Origin: Chloroflexota bacterium
GTDB taxonomy: Bacteria; Chloroflexota; Anaerolineae; Anaerolineales; DRMV01
NCBI GenBank assembly: GCA_011322445.1
Contig: DRMV01000027.1
Location: forward strand, 1-40,373
Direction of reading: 5' to 3'
DNA length: 40,373 nt
Position numbers and translations under genes: made by a program. The notes beneath the pieces are model-generated. The model ran no database searches, was not told where the DNA came from, and saw only the letters and a list, made by a program, of their open reading frames with translations. Below are positions 31,930 through 40,045 of the stretch, piece after piece. The number at the start of each line of letters is the position of its first letter. Position 1 is the first letter of the stretch.

Positions 31930-32005
31930 TGGCGCCCTCGGCGTGATTCGAACACGCGACCCCTTGCTCCGCAAGCAAGTGCTCTCTCCACTGAGCTACG
32001 AGGGC
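31930..32005 (-). tRNA. tRNA-Arg, anticodon GCG
   Basis: A complete 76-nt cloverleaf with encoded CCA. The acceptor GCCCTCG/CGAGGGC, D stem GCTC/GAGC, anticodon stem CTTGC/GCAAG, loop TTGCGGA and T arm GCGTG/CACGC all pair perfectly. Arginine identity is supported by A20, C35 and G73. The GCG anticodon (reading CGC/CGU) is unusual, because most bacteria use ACG modified to ICG. Confidence 0.93.
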
Positions 32006-32018
32006 AGATATTCACAGG

Positions 32019-32110
32019 CGGGGAGGGCGGGATTCGAACCCGCGGTGGAGGTTTTAGCCCCCACAACCGCTTAGCAGGCGGCCCCGATCGTCCAACTCCG
32101 GCACCTCCCC
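32019..32110 (-). tRNA. tRNA-Ser, anticodon GCT
   Basis: A 92-nt class II tRNA with acceptor GGGGAGG/CCTCCCC, anticodon stem GCCGC/GCGGT, loop CTGCTAA and a long variable arm. It decodes AGC/AGU. The discriminator is G; the following bases are CCT, so CCA is not encoded. Confidence 0.94.
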
Positions 32111-32174
32111 GAATTGTGTGGGTGCAACCGCCCCTGGGGAGGATGGGCTACCCTGGGGGCTTCCCGCCTGTGGT

Positions 32175-32266
<92 letters not shown>

Positions 32267-32314
32267 CGGAGCGGAGGGTATTTTACCACACCCAAGAAGG
32301 GGTGACAACCCGAG

Positions 32315-32386
32315 AGCGGGCGACGGGATTCGAACCCGCGAATGGTAGCTTGGGAAGCTACTGCCTTACCACTTGGCGACGCCCGC
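32315..32386 (-). tRNA. tRNA-Gly, anticodon CCC
   Basis: A 72-nt cloverleaf with acceptor GCGGGCG/CGCCCGC, anticodon stem GTAGC/GCTAC, loop TTCCCAA and T arm GCGGG/CCCGT. It decodes GGG. The discriminator is T, and CCA is not encoded. It is the first gene of the tRNA cluster, about six bases after the predicted transcription start. Confidence 0.94.
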
Positions 32387-32517: not shown

Positions 32518-33918
32518 TCACGCCCTCAACGGCGTGCTGCGGCGGTAAAGTTTTTCCCGCAGCAGCAGCACATCGCGGCGCAAACGCTCGTCGCTTTCGA
32601 TTTTATCGGCAATTTTTTCGTAGCCGTACTTCACCGTGGTGTGGTCGCGGCCGCCCAGCAGTTCACCGATTTGCGGCAGGGAAAGCTTCGCGTCTTCCCG
32701 CAGCAGATACATCGCCACCTGGCGGGGCAGCGCTACTTTGTGGGCGCGGCTTTTGCTGCGCAGGCGCTCTACACTGACACCAAAAGCCTCGGCTACGGCC
32801 TGCAAAATGCGCTCGGGGGCAATTTCCTGACGGCGAGGCAGCATGTCGGCCAGGGCGGCTTCCACCAGTTGGGGCGTCAGCGGCATCCCCCGCAACTCGG
32901 CATAAGCCAGCACCCGCGTGAGCGCACCTTCCAGCTCACGGATGTTGGTGTGCATGTAGCGGGCAATGGTTTCCAAAATCTCCATCGGCACGGTCTTACC
33001 CGCCTCTTCAGCCTTGAAACGCAAAATCGCCACACGGGTTTCGAAATCGGGCGGCTGAATATCGGCGGTCAGCCCCCATTCAAAGCGAGAACGCAGCCGC
33101 TCTTCCAGCGTCACCAGCGCCTTCGGAGGACGGTCGGAGGTCAGCACAACCTGCTTGTTCTGGCCGTGCAGGGTGTTGAAAGTGTGGAAAAACTCTTCCT
33201 GCGTGGATTCTTTACCGGCAATGAACTGAATATCGTCAATGAGGAGCACATCTACCTTGCGGTATTTGTCGCGGAAAGCCTCGGTGTCGTGGATGCGAAT
33301 GGCATTGATAAGGTCGTTGGTGAACTCTTCCGAGGAAACGTAGCGCACCACCAGCCCCTGGGCGAGGCAGGCGTTGCCGATGGCGTGGAGGAGGTGAGTT
33401 TTGCCCAAACCGACGCCGCCGTAGAGGAAGAGAGGGTTGTAAGCATTGGCAGGATTCTCAGCCACGGCCATGCTGGCTGCATGGGCCAGGCGGTTGTTGG
33501 AACCCACCACGAAGTTCTCGAACGTGTAGCGCGGGTTGATGGCCGCCGCGCTGTGGGAAGGCGGCAGCGCAGCCGTGCGGGCGCGCGAGCGCGGCTGCGG
33601 CCCCTGAGCATGGCCGTTGGGGTTCAAGGCCACGGCTTCTTCCCCCGACCGTCTCGTCAAAGATTCCTCCGTCCACACCACGAAATCCACATCCACAGGC
33701 TTGGCAAGCAGCCCGGCCAACTTGCGGCGCACCGTGCTGCGCAAACGGCTTTCCAGCCAATCGCGAGCATAAGCGTTATGAACGCCGACCACCAGTTTGC
33801 CATCGTGCAAATCAACTGGCCGGGTGTCGCGCACCCAGGTATCAAAAGCGGCTTTGGGCATCTCCATCTGGAGCTGGCCCAACACGGTTTGCCAGACTTG
33901 AACGGCTTGCTTTTCCAC
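32518..33918 (-). CDS. dnaA: chromosomal replication initiator DnaA, GTG start
   Basis: A 466-residue initiator. The N-terminal domain I (VWQTVLGQLQ...) is followed by a variable linker. The AAA+ domain has Walker A GGVGLGKT (167-174) and Walker B LLIDD (225-229). Domain IV has the DNA-binding signature LPQIGELLGGRDHTTVKY. The start is a GTG at 33918 with GAGGAGG (33924-33930) five bases upstream; an in-frame ATG 48 bases further up has no such site and would add a non-conserved tail. It is followed by tRNA genes rather than dnaN. Confidence 0.96.
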   Translation of the reverse strand: MEKQAVQVWQTVLGQLQMEMPKAAFDTWVRDTRPVDLHDGKLVVGVHNAYARDWLESRLRSTVRRKLAGLLAKPVDVDFVVWTEESLTRRSGEEAVALNPNGHAQGPQPRSRARTAALPPSHSAAAINPRYTFENFVVGSNNRLAHAASMAVAENPANAYNPLFLYGGVGLGKTHLLHAIGNACLAQGLVVRYVSSEEFTNDLINAIRIHDTEAFRDKYRKVDVLLIDDIQFIAGKESTQEEFFHTFNTLHGQNKQVVLTSDRPPKALVTLEERLRSRFEWGLTADIQPPDFETRVAILRFKAEEAGKTVPMEILETIARYMHTNIRELEGALTRVLAYAELRGMPLTPQLVEAALADMLPRRQEIAPERILQAVAEAFGVSVERLRSKSRAHKVALPRQVAMYLLREDAKLSLPQIGELLGGRDHTTVKYGYEKIADKIESDERLRRDVLLLREKLYRRSTPLRA

Positions 33919-34419
33919 GCTGTCCTCCTCGTATGCTCCAGCATCCCACGCCCCCTGGTGGGGCATCGGCGAAGGTGAGGCTGCAAAGTTTGTTGACCCT
34001 GCTTTTCATGCATCCGGCGGCTGAACGCCCCCTGTGCGAGAGTTATTCTACATGGAGAAAGCCGCGGGAGCAATGGGAAGAAACCTACGAAACTTTAAAA
34101 ACATCCGCTTTTTTAAGGAACTGTTCTTTAAATCTTGCCCTGTGCAGTCAGCCCCCCCTCACGACAAGTCGAAAAAATGTGCGCCTTTCTATGGGCGCGC
34201 CTTCGCGCCACACCCCCATATCTGGGAAGGACTATCCGAAAATTGGGCTTTCACCCAGGTTTTGGGAGGTTTAGGGGAATTCCCCCGCGCGCGTGTGCCT
34301 CGCGACTTTTGCCCTAAGGTTGCGCGCGGCCGCGCGTGTGCTTAGCCAGGAACCCCCTCAGACCACGGCCCACAGCGGCCATACCAGCACAGCCCACCTC
34401 AAAACGGGCGCAAGCCGCG
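33919..34419. other. 501-base intergenic region upstream of dnaA
   Basis: No gene is seen. The part next to dnaA carries its promoter (34045-34073). An A/T-rich patch covers about 34085-34137 with runs TTTAAAAA and TTTTTTAA. Further left are GGGGAATTCCCC (34274-34285) and the 14-bp palindrome CGCGCGGCCGCGCG (34323-34336). I looked for DnaA boxes (TTATNCACA) on both strands and found no good match, so an origin is not supported. Confidence 0.6.
34045..34073 (-). promoter_or_regulatory. probable dnaA promoter
   Basis: On the minus strand TTGCTC (34068-34073), a 17-base spacer and TAGAAT (34045-34050). The leader to the GTG start would be about 120 bases. Confidence 0.55.
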
Positions 34420-35088
34420 CTATCGCCGCCATCCCAAGAAAGCCAGCACCACCGCCAGGCACGCCAACGCCCCTTCCACAAGACGCCAGCCCCAAGGCGA
34501 AGGCGTCGGCGCAGAGGGCGCCGCCGATGGCACAGGAAACGGCGTGGGGGTGGGGGTGGGGGTGGGGGTGGGGGTGGCTGTGACCGGTTCGAGCGCGTTC
34601 TCTTCCACGTGGGCAGGAGCCAAAGCCCGCGGTTGCGGCGAAAGGGTAGGGGTGGCCATCCCCACCGCCGCGCCAGCAGCCTTGGCACTCTCGGCGGCCG
34701 GCTGCTCCACCGGCGCAGCCGAAAGCGCACGCGGCGGCGGAGCAGCCGTCGCGCCGAGCAACATGGTGTGGGAAAGGAAGTCGCCTGCAAATACCAAAAG
34801 CAACAACATCAGCGCAGCCGCACTGGCCCAGCGGTAAACCCGCCTCGTCCCCCACGGCCGTTGGGTGACCACATCGCCCGCACGCAGGGTAAACGCACGC
34901 GGGGCGCGCTGGCGGGGCAGCGTGTGCAGCCCCTGCTTGACAGCCTGCATAGCAGCGTAGGCTTCCTGCCAGGCCGGGTCGGCGGCCACGCGCTGGGCCA
35001 CACGCGCCGTTTCCCTGGGGGGCAACTCGCCATCCAGGTAAGCGGTCAACAGACGCAGGTCGCGGGCAGAAAGGTTTGCGCGGCTCAT
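34420..35088 (-). CDS. anti-sigma factor, membrane-anchored
   Basis: A 222-residue partner of the ECF sigma factor just upstream. The N-terminal cytoplasmic part (about 1-65: LTAYLDGELPPRETARVAQRV...) has the helical pattern of anti-sigma domains but lacks the zinc-binding HxxxCxxC. A membrane helix follows (about 87-105), then a Pro/Ala/Thr-rich outer region with (Thr-Pro)6 near 175-186, and a second hydrophobic helix at the C-terminus (about 200-222). The ATG overlaps the sigma stop codon as ATGA. The two-helix topology with an outside stalk suggests that it senses envelope stress or tension. Confidence 0.85.
   Translation of the reverse strand: MSRANLSARDLRLLTAYLDGELPPRETARVAQRVAADPAWQEAYAAMQAVKQGLHTLPRQRAPRAFTLRAGDVVTQRPWGTRRVYRWASAAALMLLLLVFAGDFLSHTMLLGATAAPPPRALSAAPVEQPAAESAKAAGAAVGMATPTLSPQPRALAPAHVEENALEPVTATPTPTPTPTPTPFPVPSAAPSAPTPSPWGWRLVEGALACLAVVLAFLGWRR
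34545..34574. repeat. (TGGGGG)5 hexanucleotide repeat within the anti-sigma gene
   Basis: Five perfect units plus a partial sixth. On the coding strand it encodes alternating Thr-Pro. The plus strand has five G5 runs separated by single T, a strong G-quadruplex-forming pattern. Unit gain or loss would change the Thr-Pro stalk by two residues without a frameshift. Confidence 0.9.
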
Positions 35089-35702
35089 GAGGAACGCCCT
35101 CCGGGGTTTAGACGCGCCAAAGCGCCCAAAAGTTCCGGAAAACGGCGCAGGCACGCCTGCATCCGCAACCGCCCACGCGCCAGGCGGCTTTTCAGCGTGC
35201 CCAACGCCACACCAAGGGCTTGTGCGGCCTCGGCATAGGGAAAGCCCCCCACATCCACCAAGGCAAGGGCGGCGCGCTGCTCGGCAGGGAGCGCCTGGAA
35301 GCAGGTTTCCAGGGCGCGCCGCAGGGCCGCACGCTCGGCTTCGGCTTCAGGTTGCGTTTGGGGGTTGGTGTCAGCCAGCCAGGGGGCATCTTCCACCGCA
35401 TCGCCTTCGGCATCGGCGGGTTCCAGCGGCACCGTCGGGCGGCGCTTGCGGCGGCGCAGGTGGTCGTAACACGCATTGGTGGCAATACGAAACAGCCAGC
35501 CGCGCCACGAGCCGCCCCGATAACGGCGAATGTGCTGCCACGCCCGCAGAAAGGTCTCTTGCGTGGCGTCCTCGGCCGCGACGCGCTCGCCCAAGATGCG
35601 GTAGGCCACGTTGTAAACCGCATCCTGATAAGCCAGCACCAGGCGGTTGAAAGCCTCCAGGTCACCGCCCTGGGCGGCGCGAACCCACTCAGCCTCGGTC
35701 AT
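35085..35702 (-). CDS. ECF-type RNA polymerase sigma factor
   Basis: A 205-residue sigma factor with region 2 (about 20-90: DAVYNVAYRILGERVAAEDATQETFLRAW, then WLFRIATNACYDHLRRRKRR) and region 4 (about 130-185: LPAEQRAALALVDVGGFPYAEAAQALGVALGTLKSRLARGR). Regions 1 and 3 are missing, as in all ECF sigmas. It starts nine bases after the antiporter gene ends and overlaps the anti-sigma gene by four bases, so the three form an operon. The signal is unknown; the linked antiporter hints at ion or envelope stress. Confidence 0.94.
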   Translation of the reverse strand: MTEAEWVRAAQGGDLEAFNRLVLAYQDAVYNVAYRILGERVAAEDATQETFLRAWQHIRRYRGGSWRGWLFRIATNACYDHLRRRKRRPTVPLEPADAEGDAVEDAPWLADTNPQTQPEAEAERAALRRALETCFQALPAEQRAALALVDVGGFPYAEAAQALGVALGTLKSRLARGRLRMQACLRRFPELLGALARLNPGGRSS

Positions 35703-35711
35703 GGCAACGGC

Positions 35712-37601
35712 TCAAAGCTCAATATACTCATCCACATCAAAGAGGAAAACAGTCGCCCCACCGACATGCACCGGCTTGGGGCGCGGCAGGGGCAGCACCC
35801 CACCGATTTTATCGGCCACAAACTCCACCCGGCGGCGCGACGTGGTCTTGAGAATTTCGACCACCGTCTCGATCTGGCCTTCAGGCACGCCAATAAGCAT
35901 GGTGATGTTGGGGCGCTTCAGGAAGCCACCGCTGCTTTCCACCGGCACCACCGGAATGCCCAACTTGCCCAGCGCCTCAGCAACCGCGTGCGGGGTGCGT
36001 TCCTGCACAATCGCCATCAGCAGATGACGGATGGGCGGGGCATCGGGCGAGCGGCGCAGCAACATGCCAGGCCAGGCCGGAAGGGTATCGCTGAGGGCGC
36101 TATCCACCTCAGCGGCCAGGGTGGCAAAGGTTTCTTCGCCGATGACGCCCGCGTGGAAGAGTTCTTGCAGCGCAATGCGCTGGGCACGCAGAATTTCCAG
36201 CCGGGCTTTGTGCAACTCTTCCATTTGCAGGGCGGGGTGCTGGCGCAAAATCTGCTCCACGGCCCGCTGAAGCCGCTGGTTGCGCTGCTCCAGCAAGGGG
36301 CGGAGCACCTCCCAGGTGTGCGCCGAAATCACGCCCTGCCGGTAGGCGCGGGTAAGGTATTCATGGCCGGCCCGCGCGGCCACCGCACGCGCATGGCGGC
36401 GCTCAAACTCAAGCCGCTCTTCGTCGTTACTGCCAATGCCCAGCCACTTCAACACCCACGGCATCGAGCCGCCCTGCACCAGCAGGGTAAAGAGCACCAC
36501 CCCAAAGGCCATCACGCTGATCTGGTCGCGCAGCGGCCCCACGCTCTCGGGGATGCCCAGCGCCAGAGCCAGGGAAACCGCACCCCGCAAGCCGCCCCAG
36601 TACAGCACGTGCCGCCACTTCGAGGGCAGGTCTCGGCCAATCCACGAAAGGCCATACACGCTCAAAGCGCGCGCCACGATGATCGCCAACACCGCCCACA
36701 GCACAGCGTACCAGTTGCTCAACAGCACTTCAGGGCGAATTTGCAGCCCAATGAGCAGAAAGATGAACGAGTTAGCCAGAAAAGCCGTGAATTCCCAAAA
36801 ATTGACGACCACAATGCGGGTTGTAGCCGACATGCCGCGAGGGCCGATATTGCCGTTGATGAGCCCCGCCGCCACCACCGCGAGCACACCGCTGACATGC
36901 GCCTGCTCGGCGACCAGAAAAGCACCGTAAGCCAGCACCGCGGTGAGGGCGGTTTCCAGCAGGTAATCGTCAACGCGGGCAATGATGGCCGAAACCAACG
37001 CCCCCAGCAAGCCACCCACCAGGAAGCCGCCGCCCGCAACGCGCACGAAATCAATCAGGCCGCCGGTAATGCTGTACGTGCCGGTCACCAGCACGCCCAG
37101 CAGCAGATTGAAAACCACAATGGCGGTGCCGTCGTTGAACAGACTTTCCCCTTCCAGCAACACTTGCAGCCGTTTGGGCGCGCCCAGCGAGCGGAACAGC
37201 GCCACCACCGCGACAGGATCGGTAGCCGCCACCAGTGCGCCAAAAACCAGCGCCGCGGCCAGGGGCATGCCCAAACCATAATGCACAATGCCGCCAACCA
37301 CCCCCGTCGCCAGCACCACACCGGCCACGGCCAGCGCCAAAATCAAGCCCAGATCGCGGCGCAGGTCTTCCCACCGAATGTGGAAAGCCGCTTCGAAAAT
37401 CAACGGCGGCACCAGCACCCCCAAAATCAGTTCGCTGGTGATGTGAACTTCCACCTCGGCGAAAATCGCCAGCGCCAGCCCAATGAGCACCAGGCCGAGG
37501 GTATAAGGCATCCGCAGGCGGCGGCTGAAGATGCCAACCAGCACCGCCACGGTCAGCAGCGAAATGACCACCTCTTCGAGAAAAATGATAGAGTACGACA
37601 T
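35712..37601 (-). CDS. CPA1-type Na+/H+ antiporter with C-terminal DarA/PstA-like c-di-AMP receptor domain
   Basis: A 629-residue protein. Residues 1 to about 388 are a cation/proton antiporter of the CPA1 (NhaP/NHE) family with about 12 helices, including ATDPVAV (126-132) and the ion-binding ND motif in GESLFNDGTA (Asp157). A long charged helical linker follows (about 392-515). Residues about 525-629 closely resemble the P-II-like c-di-AMP receptor DarA/PstA: an AIVQ opening strand, SSGGFLKRPNITMLIGV (557-572) and VGGATVFLFDVDEY (613-626). The usual cytoplasmic tails of CPA1 proteins are RCK or cyclic-nucleotide domains, so this fusion is unusual. The ATG lacks a strong ribosome-binding site. 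The gene precedes the ECF sigma gene by nine bases. The antiporter call is firm; the DarA match is from memory but covers the whole domain. Confidence 0.9.
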   Translation of the reverse strand: MSYSIIFLEEVVISLLTVAVLVGIFSRRLRMPYTLGLVLIGLALAIFAEVEVHITSELILGVLVPPLIFEAAFHIRWEDLRRDLGLILALAVAGVVLATGVVGGIVHYGLGMPLAAALVFGALVAATDPVAVVALFRSLGAPKRLQVLLEGESLFNDGTAIVVFNLLLGVLVTGTYSITGGLIDFVRVAGGGFLVGGLLGALVSAIIARVDDYLLETALTAVLAYGAFLVAEQAHVSGVLAVVAAGLINGNIGPRGMSATTRIVVVNFWEFTAFLANSFIFLLIGLQIRPEVLLSNWYAVLWAVLAIIVARALSVYGLSWIGRDLPSKWRHVLYWGGLRGAVSLALALGIPESVGPLRDQISVMAFGVVLFTLLVQGGSMPWVLKWLGIGSNDEERLEFERRHARAVAARAGHEYLTRAYRQGVISAHTWEVLRPLLEQRNQRLQRAVEQILRQHPALQMEELHKARLEILRAQRIALQELFHAGVIGEETFATLAAEVDSALSDTLPAWPGMLLRRSPDAPPIRHLLMAIVQERTPHAVAEALGKLGIPVVPVESSGGFLKRPNITMLIGVPEGQIETVVEILKTTSRRRVEFVADKIGGVLPLPRPKPVHVGGATVFLFDVDEYIEL

Positions 37602-37696
37602 GGGGAAGCAACGCTCCGTATGTTGATGTTGCCATGCCCCGGTGTGCCGATGCTGCAATGCACGTGATGGCCGGGCAACCGATGCACGGGAATGCC

Positions 37697-40045
37697 CTAC
37701 GGCGCGATTTCCACTTCGCAGGGCTCGGGTGTCGTCAAGGTGCGGGTTTCACCATCAGGGGTGGTGATCAAAGTGCGGCCCGGGCTGCGACGGATGTGCC
37801 AGCCCCAAAACGAGACCCTCATTTCTTCTTCAAAGGGCGTCGGCCAGGTAAACCGCACTCTATGCGGGTTGACAGGGACGATGCCGGCCGTCCGCAGCCA
37901 CAGCCCCACCGGCAACAGGCCGCCAAGGACATCGCGCCCGCCCATGCCCTCGCCGGTATCGGCGTGATAAGTTTCGGCAAACGTGCCCTGGGCGGCCAAC
38001 GCACCTTGGGCGGCCGCGGCCAGGCTTTCCAACAGGTGGGCCGCCTCGGCCACAAAGCCGTGGGCAAGCAAGCCTTCCACCGCAAAGAGATTCCACGGCA
38101 TGTGCACGGCGCGTCGCCAGGGGGCTGCCTTTTGCCCGCCGCGCGGCGAAAGGGGGGCGCCATAAGGCCGCCCGTATTCGCGCGCCGAAACCAACGCTCG
38201 CCGCACCGCCTGGGCTGCGTCGTCTTCCAACATTTCAGCCCAAAAAGGCAACAACAGGCTGATGTCGGGCGTGGTGTAGTCGGGCGTCAGCACCACAAAG
38301 CGGCTGCGGCTGCGCAGTTTCTCGCCTTCCACCGTCACCGTGGCGAGATGGCGAAACACCCCGCGGGAAACCGCCACCCCGCGGCCTTCGTGCCAGCGAA
38401 TGCGCCCGCCGCTGAGGGTCTCTTCGAGCGGCTTGCCGCGGGCGTCGCTGCCCCGCAAGGTCACCGTGGCAGGCACCACCTGCCCCCCCTCGGGGAAAAG
38501 ATGCACCACCACGCGGCTGGGCAAAGGAAAAGTTTCGGCAATCGCCAGCGTGCCGGGGCCGCGATGTTTGCCCAACGTCAGGTGCGGGGGGCGCTCGTGG
38601 GTTTCGTAATCGCGGTAGAGGGGCGCGCGACGGTGGGCATCCCACATGGCAGCGACGGCCTGCCGCAGCCGTCGGCGGCGGGTGCGCAAGTCGGGCGGCG
38701 GGGTCTCACCTGCGGCCTCGGCCAGAGTTTCCAGCCGCCCCAATGCCCGATAGAGCAGCGCGTACAGCGCGGGGCTTTCGGCCTGGGCGAGATCGGCGCC
38801 AACCGAATCGCGGCGCCAGGGGGCAAAGCCGGGCAGGTCGGCCAGCCCCATTTGCAAAGGATGCGACCATTCAGGAAAGCCATCGCGATTGGCATCACCC
38901 CGGGCATACCACGCTTCGATGAAACGATGCAGCGGGCGATAAAGTCCGGCCAGCCCCGCGGGGTCGTGGGCATAAGCCCGGTAAGCCAGTTCTACCAGCA
39001 GGGGCGAGGCCAAACGGTGGCTTTCGGGCTGCGCCGGCCTCCAGGGGATGAAACCATCGGCCTCCTGGCGGGCGAGGAAGGCGGCCACCCACCCTTGCAC
39101 CGGCTGCGGGTTGGTCGGCAAGAAGGCACTCACCGCGAGGTGATACGCCTCCAGCACCGACGCCGCCCGATTGAGGGCCAACGGGTCGGCAGGGCTGCCG
39201 TGGTCGGGGGAACGCGCGGTGAGCAAGAAGGGGCGCGGCAGGCCGGGCAACCGGGCAAGCAGGCTCTGGGCCGTCTGGCGGGCACGCAGGAAGGCCCAGG
39301 TGCGCGCGGGCGGCGTGCTTTCCAGACGCGGATGCTGGTTTTCCAGCAGGGCCAGGCGGGCAAGGAAAGGGGGCCAGGGGCGCGCTGCCAGTTTGCGGGC
39401 CAACTCGAAACCGGCTTCGGCATCGGCCAGGGCGGTTTGCACCCAGGTCAGGCGGCGGCGACCCTCGACGGGCAAGTCGAAATCCACCGTCAACGAAGGG
39501 AAAGGGCTCAGCACCGCCTCCGCCCCACCGGTCAGGAACACCACCGGTTGCAGCCCCCCGGCTTCCCCCTGCAAAACATGCACGGCGTGGCGCTCTTGGG
39601 GTGCCATGCCGTGCTCGGCATCGGTGAAGGGGCGCAACACAGCAGCCAGCCCAAGGGTGCCGGTGCGGGGTGCGGCGGCGCGGTTTTCCAGCGTCAGGCG
39701 GCCAATCACCGCATTGGGGTGCGCCACCCAATATTCGCAATGCAGCGCCAAATCGGGGAACGGTTCGCACGTCAGGCGGGCGTAAGCCGGGGCCAGGTCG
39801 TGCACCTGGGGCAAACGGGCAAAAGCCGGCGCGGCCCAACGGGGCTGGCCTTCCCGCACCACAAAGGGGAAAAGGGCCATGGATTGCACCCGCAACCCAT
39901 AAGTGGTCACCAGCGCAAGGGCATCGCGCTCCCCCCACGCGGCGTGCAGCGCCCACACATGGTCGTCATCGGGCGGCGTGTCGGTCAGGCGCGCATCGGC
40001 GGCCAGCACCATTTGCGCCGGAGGGCGAAAAGGCAAAGGAGGCAT
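37697..40045 (-). CDS. six-hairpin glycosidase-like protein (GH63/amylo-glucosidase-like)
   Basis: A 782-residue protein without a signal peptide. The N-terminal part (about 1-230) is beta-rich. The middle and C-terminal parts show the alternating helices of an (alpha/alpha)6 barrel, with segments such as GDANRDGFPEWSHPLQMG, WRRDSVGADLAQAESPALYALLYRALGRLE and MPWNLFAVEGLLAHGF, typical of GH63/GH37-like or glycogen-debranching-like enzymes. The acidic residues of GDANRDG and of FPEW are candidates for catalysis, but I cannot assign them. Substrate unknown. The ATG has no Shine-Dalgarno sequence, and a TAAAAT box (40052-40057) ends six bases before it. It lies upstream of the antiporter-sigma operon with a 95-base gap. 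Confidence 0.7.
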   Translation of the reverse strand: MPPLPFRPPAQMVLAADARLTDTPPDDDHVWALHAAWGERDALALVTTYGLRVQSMALFPFVVREGQPRWAAPAFARLPQVHDLAPAYARLTCEPFPDLALHCEYWVAHPNAVIGRLTLENRAAAPRTGTLGLAAVLRPFTDAEHGMAPQERHAVHVLQGEAGGLQPVVFLTGGAEAVLSPFPSLTVDFDLPVEGRRRLTWVQTALADAEAGFELARKLAARPWPPFLARLALLENQHPRLESTPPARTWAFLRARQTAQSLLARLPGLPRPFLLTARSPDHGSPADPLALNRAASVLEAYHLAVSAFLPTNPQPVQGWVAAFLARQEADGFIPWRPAQPESHRLASPLLVELAYRAYAHDPAGLAGLYRPLHRFIEAWYARGDANRDGFPEWSHPLQMGLADLPGFAPWRRDSVGADLAQAESPALYALLYRALGRLETLAEAAGETPPPDLRTRRRRLRQAVAAMWDAHRRAPLYRDYETHERPPHLTLGKHRGPGTLAIAETFPLPSRVVVHLFPEGGQVVPATVTLRGSDARGKPLEETLSGGRIRWHEGRGVAVSRGVFRHLATVTVEGEKLRSRSRFVVLTPDYTTPDISLLLPFWAEMLEDDAAQAVRRALVSAREYGRPYGAPLSPRGGQKAAPWRRAVHMPWNLFAVEGLLAHGFVAEAAHLLESLAAAAQGALAAQGTFAETYHADTGEGMGGRDVLGGLLPVGLWLRTAGIVPVNPHRVRFTWPTPFEEEMRVSFWGWHIRRSPGRTLITTPDGETRTLTTPEPCEVEIAP

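Follow-up and report, generated by a model that had tools for sequence, protein, structure and literature searches.

DarA/PstA proteins are among the most widespread c-di-AMP receptors. No partner of the free-standing forms is known (PMC7857571, 2021; PMC12802241, December 2025), and a sequence-only reading of the DNA analyzed here, which called the function of DarA unresolved, agrees with the literature for 2021 (PMC7857571). In Staphylococcus aureus PstA, half A of the c-di-AMP site consists of N24, R26, T28, G47, and Q108 of one monomer, and half B consists of F36, L37, N41, and F99 of the neighboring monomer; T28A and a GGFL-to-AAAA replacement each abolish measurable c-di-AMP binding, and N41A strongly weakens it (PMC4316997). 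A second group of described systems comprises CpaA, KhtTU, and CpeAB, which are c-di-AMP-linked cation/proton antiporters and, like the system proposed here, have a C-terminal or partner sensor and a small operon partner; their sensor is RCK_C, a fold unrelated to the PII/DarA-type sensor of the antiporter described here (PMC10117811).

PII-type units that are attached to a transporter or stand next to one are already known. In GlnK-AmtB and SbtB-SbtA, a PII-superfamily protein is encoded beside a transporter and acts on it, as proposed here, but these regulators are separate soluble trimers with other ligands and other transporter families, whereas the present system has one PII-like unit as a covalent part of the transporter and another that is free. 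The dimeric Na+/H+ exchangers SLC9C1 and plant SOS1 also have a C-terminal sensor and were the best full-length structural matches, but their sensor has a CNBD-type (cyclic-nucleotide-binding) fold, in contrast to the PII/DarA fold of the bacterial protein. With the free DarA/PstA proteins of Firmicutes (YaaQ, PF06153), the tail shares family and fold, the GGFL T'-loop, N41, G47, and F99, and the D12/R67 region is mostly kept in the family. Unlike them, the tail is fused to a membrane antiporter, has a B'-loop that is four residues shorter, and has a loop-less paralogue as a partner; furthermore, R26, T28, and Q108 are replaced in the copy studied. In the open-access literature searched, no paper on a DarA-antiporter fusion was found, nor was a description of a c-di-AMP receptor that combines two different subunits.

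Architecture and spread of the antiporter fusion

The window, that is, the whole stretch of 40,373 nucleotides analyzed, contains the following features of interest.

34420-35702, minus strand: sigma factor and anti-sigma factor genes, read by eye, with a gap of ~9 bp behind the antiporter
35712-37601, minus strand: CPA1::DarA fusion gene, 629 aa, ATG start, stop included
35718-36023, minus strand: DarA/PstA (CdAMP_rec, PII-like) domain, residues 527-628, from PF06153 and the fold match
35907-35930, minus strand: T'-loop GGFL (558-561) and N565 (equivalent to N41), from the alignment; 'B' half-site retained, assignment after PMC4316997
35943-35954, minus strand: P550 to P553 (equivalent to R26-K29), from the alignment; R26 replaced by P550 and T28 by V552, 'A' half lost
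36024-36443, minus strand: helical linker from membrane domain to sensor tail, residues 387-526, from the AlphaFold2 model
36444-37553, minus strand: CPA1 Na+/H+ antiporter transmembrane domain, residues 17-386, PF00999 E 6.7e-75
37697-40045, minus strand: MGH1-like glycoside hydrolase gene, 782 aa, PF22422 E 2.8e-14, directly upstream of the fusion on the same strand

The product is predicted to be a CPA1-family Na+ (or K+)/H+ antiporter with a cytosolic C-terminus ending in a DarA/PstA-type PII-like domain. Its frame runs from an ATG at 37601 to a stop at 35712-35714, and a longer frame is possible from a TTG at 37658. In the Pfam profile search, PF00999 scored 252.7 bits (cut-off, 26.2), and the antiporter half exceeded the curated cut-off of TIGR00831 (a_cpa1) of 279.6 bits (E 9.9e-92, 308.1 bits). 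D128 (D128-P129 in the TDP motif), N156-D157 (the ion-site ND motif), and the helix arginine R339 are invariant in an alignment of 35 fused homologues and are the predicted active-site residues of the antiporter. No RCK_C (TrkA_C) domain was matched by Pfam in the fusion protein up to an E value of 1.

The sequence-only reading had placed a DarA/PstA pattern in the C-terminal ~105 residues, and the AIVQ strand, SSGGFLKRPNIT, and VGGATVFLFDVDEY were all found there, with a similarity far beyond chance. The profile search that it had proposed was significant: PF06153 (CdAMP_rec) matched residues 527-628 over profile positions 3-108 of 109 (E 1.5e-16; score, 61 bits; cut-off, 27 bits). The order of the motifs is that of DarA/PstA, as had been claimed; their spacing, which had been described as identical, is only close, the B'-loop region having 23 residues versus 27 in Bacillus subtilis DarA. 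The phmmer E values of the tail were 5e-12 for B. subtilis DarA/YaaQ and 2e-11 for S. aureus PstA. The score of the fusion against the NCBIfam DarA equivalog NF058593, 65.2 bits, did not reach the curated cut-off of 140, indicating that the tail is a diverged member of the family and not DarA itself. The classical PII profile PF00543 did not match the tail up to an E value of 1, and the tail has a short GGFL T'-loop in place of the long T-loop and Walker-like B-loop of GlnB/GlnK.

Structure prediction led to the same family. The AlphaFold2 model of the tail, built on a 38-sequence alignment, had a mean pLDDT of 82, and its best PDB match was PstA with c-di-AMP (Foldseek E 2e-7, probability 1.0), on which it superimposed with Z 12.0 and an rmsd of 2.3 Å over 99 residues; the other, classical PII proteins reached a Z of about 10. 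The predicted fold is thus closest to PstA-c-di-AMP, the complex with which the sequence-only reading had proposed to compare it. In the full-length model (pLDDT 80), a helical linker (about 394-504) and a hinge connect the membrane domain to the tail; the linker helices span residues 394-421, 427-454, 456-483, and 489-504, and the hinge, at 509-516, is of low confidence. Its best structural matches were the above-mentioned SOS1 and SLC9C1, which carry C-terminal regulatory domains, with NHE1 and PaNhaP ranking next.

Its nearest named relatives place the host among Anaerolineales (Chloroflexota). Direct reading of fused loci in at least 41 Anaerolineales genomes shows that the fusion is not an assembly error, and search rows point to it in 46 of the 151 genomes of this order that were sampled. 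The homologues come from many genera of the order and are ~50% identical. The natural fusion of a CPA1 antiporter with a DarA/PstA domain is therefore real, on the strength of profiles, predicted fold, and recurrence. No proven fusion outside Anaerolineales was found among the matches listed from 300 Chloroflexota genomes, and the best 80 matches of a genome-contig scan with a single peptide pattern yielded, for Firmicutes, free DarA only. Four frames of 402-588 aa with strong DarA matches in other classes of Chloroflexota (L098-L101) were rejected as further fusions: no antiporter was found within them and a separate start codon opens the DarA part, which makes them free DarA genes in long read-through frames. 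In one fused copy (L067 3084-4987; G248:C58), the frame changes between antiporter and tail, through either a sequencing error or decay.

A tree of 180 sequences separated the tails (81/81, support 0.73) from ordinary DarA and from a clade of short, loop-less proteins (72/72, support 0.85). Fused and free tails were intermixed, which implies that fusion or fission occurred more than once.

Short partner protein and gene neighborhoods

The genomic partner of the tail domain, overlooked in the sequence-only reading, is a DarA-like protein of ~88 aa without the large B'-loop. In 28 of 35 neighborhoods of the fusion, its gene comes directly after the fusion on the same strand, usually at a distance of only a few bases; this count includes one locus (L090) that was entered by eye because the short frame overlaps the fusion there. 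The short protein matches the first 65 positions of PF06153, and where DarA has 27 residues between positions 67 and 93, the median of the short proteins is 6. The copy in the genome of the window, which matches PF06153 with E 5e-27, is as follows.

G000:C17:5885-6151 (L096 4386-4652), minus strand: second CdAMP_rec protein of the genome, 88 aa, B'-loop deleted

In the genus of the window, the short gene thus lies on a separate contig and does not adjoin the fusion; there it is convergent with an AMMECR1-type gene (a name given from sequence alone), and a gene of this type also flanks the tail-short pair in other families. Among 81 near-complete genomes, in which tails and short proteins were assigned manually according to the part of the profile that each match covered, both types were present in 57 and absent in 20, with 4 discordant cases. 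All 24 fusion-bearing genomes in this set had the short gene.

The common cluster consists of the MGH1-like glycosidase, CPA1::tail, and short genes (e.g., L152, L159, L160, and L165), and the window carries the first two members, the glycosidase at 37697-40045 and CPA1::tail at 35712-37601. Besides the fused form, a split form was found in which a tail-less CPA1, the tail, and the short protein are encoded by three consecutive genes (L127). In addition, tail-short pairs follow an NhaA antiporter (L109) or a CPA2 antiporter plus a PII-like gene (L110, L116, L134, L136, and others), and in L158 the glycosidase, CPA1::tail, short, CPA2, PII-like, tail, and short genes form a single run. The glycosidase is a recurrent neighbor of antiporter-tail or tail-short genes. 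Of 35 free tails, 13 lie directly after the glycosidase and 8 lie after an antiporter or its PII-like companion; because the former 13 do not stand behind an antiporter, the pair is not restricted to antiporters. Since PF22422 is named after mannosylglycerate hydrolase, the glycosidase may indicate a link to compatible solutes and hence to osmoregulation.

Several further arrangements were observed. Tail-short pairs also adjoin a CitMHS/ArsB-type transporter and MFS transporters (L113 6368-7795; L139, L140, and L142). A protein of ~120 aa without a Pfam match is encoded between CPA2 and the tail-short pair (L110 5984-6343, L134 6573-6944, and similar loci); it is PII-like in appearance and possibly a third regulator. 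Tandem arrays of CPA1::tail, short, CPA1::tail, and short occur in L076 (2081-6511) and L081 (3171-7722), and in these arrays the second tail is without the GGFL/N41 motif and its short partner retains GGFL, with R at position 41. In two Clostridia-type genomes (L211 7004-7633 and L219 7004-7633), a DarA gene is directly followed by a 100-aa DarA-like gene, possibly a pair outside Chloroflexota. In the window itself, the sigma/anti-sigma pair was rejected as a part of the system, since L144, the closest relative, is the only other locus seen to have it next to the fusion. A search of the window and nine related loci for a c-di-AMP riboswitch was negative. At 31933-32386 and 32518-33966, a run of four minus-strand tRNA genes adjoins dnaA, which was named from its sequence.

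Half-site residues and competing explanations

In the alignment, the tail of the window retains half B, with G558-L561 (GGFL), N565 (N41), and F619 (F99), and has an incomplete half A, in which R26, T28, G47, and Q108 (PstA numbering) correspond to P, V, G, and E. The short protein of the same genome keeps R26 and T28 and has S in place of N41, so that the two proteins are complementary in half-site residues. The same division was seen across Anaerolineales: a complete half A (scored as R26, T28, G47, and Q/R/K108) was present in 0 of 80 tails versus 53 of 72 short proteins, and a complete half B (G35, F36, L37, N41, and F99) was present in 47 of 80 tails versus 14 of 72 short proteins. Taken singly, T28 occurred in 41/80 tails and 71/72 short proteins, N41 occurred in 60/80 and 22/72, respectively, and G47 was found in all 72 short proteins. 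Short proteins had N41 more often where the tail was without it (7/13 versus 10/47, p 0.035), a p-value that overstates the case because related sequences and genomes were treated as independent, although the direction is clear. The most conserved tail columns include GGFL, GGAT, and F99, with GGAT owing this in part to the search pattern in the loci found by pattern.

These residues qualify the label 'c-di-AMP receptor' given in the sequence-only reading. Membership of the DarA/PstA domain family stands; binding by the lone tail is weakened as a proposal, since R26, T28, and Q108 are P, V, and E and T28A alone abolishes measurable binding in S. aureus PstA. The diadenylate cyclase sought in the genome was found, as a single CdaA-type enzyme (PF02457 E 3.1e-43) with HDGA (DGA) and GLRHRA (RHR) motifs, and a PgpH-like 7TM-HD (7TMR-HDED HD) phosphodiesterase is also encoded. 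With the profile and fold matches and the cyclase, neither of the outcomes that the sequence-only reading had listed as refuting it came about. A diadenylate cyclase is present in 142 of 151 genomes of Anaerolineales, and so near-universal an enzyme is compatible with the c-di-AMP idea but supports it only weakly and without discriminating.

From this distribution, we infer that the tail and the short protein form a hetero-oligomeric sensor that controls the antiporter, probably via c-di-AMP. The best explanation, held with moderate confidence, is that a PII-type trimer of tail and short protein, with a nucleotide, most likely c-di-AMP, at the interface, switches antiport. Against it count the replaced residues of the tail, the position of the short gene on another contig in the genus of the window, the free pairs that stand behind the glycosidase, and the negative riboswitch search.

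A change of ligand is an unlikely alternative, in which the tail and the short protein would sense another adenine nucleotide (AMP, ADP/ATP, or cAMP) or bicarbonate and regulate antiport by energy or carbon state. The replacement of T28, R26, and Q108 in the tail, the loss of N41 in 50 of 72 short proteins, and the match of the short protein to the P-II profile PF00543 (E 9e-7) fit such a change, and SbtB is an example of a PII-like relative with several adenyl nucleotides as ligands (PMC10991534). However, the c-di-AMP A half is almost perfectly kept in the short proteins, and with it T28, the residue that reads the adenine; there is no Walker-like B-loop of the kind seen in ATP-binding PII proteins, and nearly all genomes of the order have c-di-AMP synthesis genes.

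CPA1 antiporters are dimers, and DarA is a trimer. This mismatch bears on a second alternative, that the tail alone forms homo-oligomers across antiporters and binds c-di-AMP in the manner of ordinary DarA, with the short protein an unrelated co-operonic regulator. GGFL, N41, G47, and F99 are kept, T28 is still present in 24 of 45 fused tails, and Listeria monocytogenes PstA binds c-di-AMP without R26 (PMC4475381), but the V at T28 and E at Q108 in the window, the lack of a complete A half in any tail, and the tight tail-short co-occurrence, together with the mismatch, make this explanation distinctly improbable. It is at least as hard to sustain that the tail is ligand-blind and a mere assembly or docking platform, with regulation coming from the short protein or elsewhere: the A half is degenerate and the motif is eroded further in one genus (g228) and some others (e.g., EGGFLSQKR), yet the GGFL/N41/F99 half is complete in more than half of the tails and the GGFL, GGAT, and F99 columns are highly conserved. 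Finally, a chance or annotation-level fusion without regulatory meaning, for which one could argue that the support for regulation consists of sequence and predicted structure, is scarcely credible given the conservation across many genera at ~50% identity, the split operon form, and the repeated pairing with other antiporter families.

Proposed control of antiport

In the preferred explanation, that of a tail-short trimer, the nucleotide would bind an interface to which the short protein would contribute R26/T28/G47/Q108 and the tail would contribute GGFL/N41/F99. Binding would shift the position of the tail and linker and thereby switch antiport. By analogy with KhtTU and CpaA, the first guess is that c-di-AMP activates the antiporter and so raises export: KhtTU is activated by c-di-AMP (PMC10117811), which generally stimulates exporters (PMC7857571). 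At other loci, the target of the same tail-short pair would be a separate CPA1, CPA2, or NhaA antiporter, controlled in trans.

A more specific form of this proposal, which we put forward tentatively, is a split receptor: the tail and the loop-less subunit would carry opposite half-sites, c-di-AMP would be sensed only at the hetero-interface, and the sensor would be reused for CPA1, CPA2, and NhaA antiporters. Perhaps the two tails of an antiporter dimer and one free subunit would together make up one PII trimer. If this idea is true, then it describes a c-di-AMP receptor made of two different subunits.

The natural fusion, the split operon version, and the pairing with three antiporter families provide a testable class of partners for DarA, namely, cation/proton antiporters. 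Together, the conserved fusion, the short partner, and the antiporter neighbors suggest that ion exchange is among the targets of DarA-type proteins. The control of ions by c-di-AMP would then reach beyond RCK_C and USP sensors and into a large uncultured phylum.
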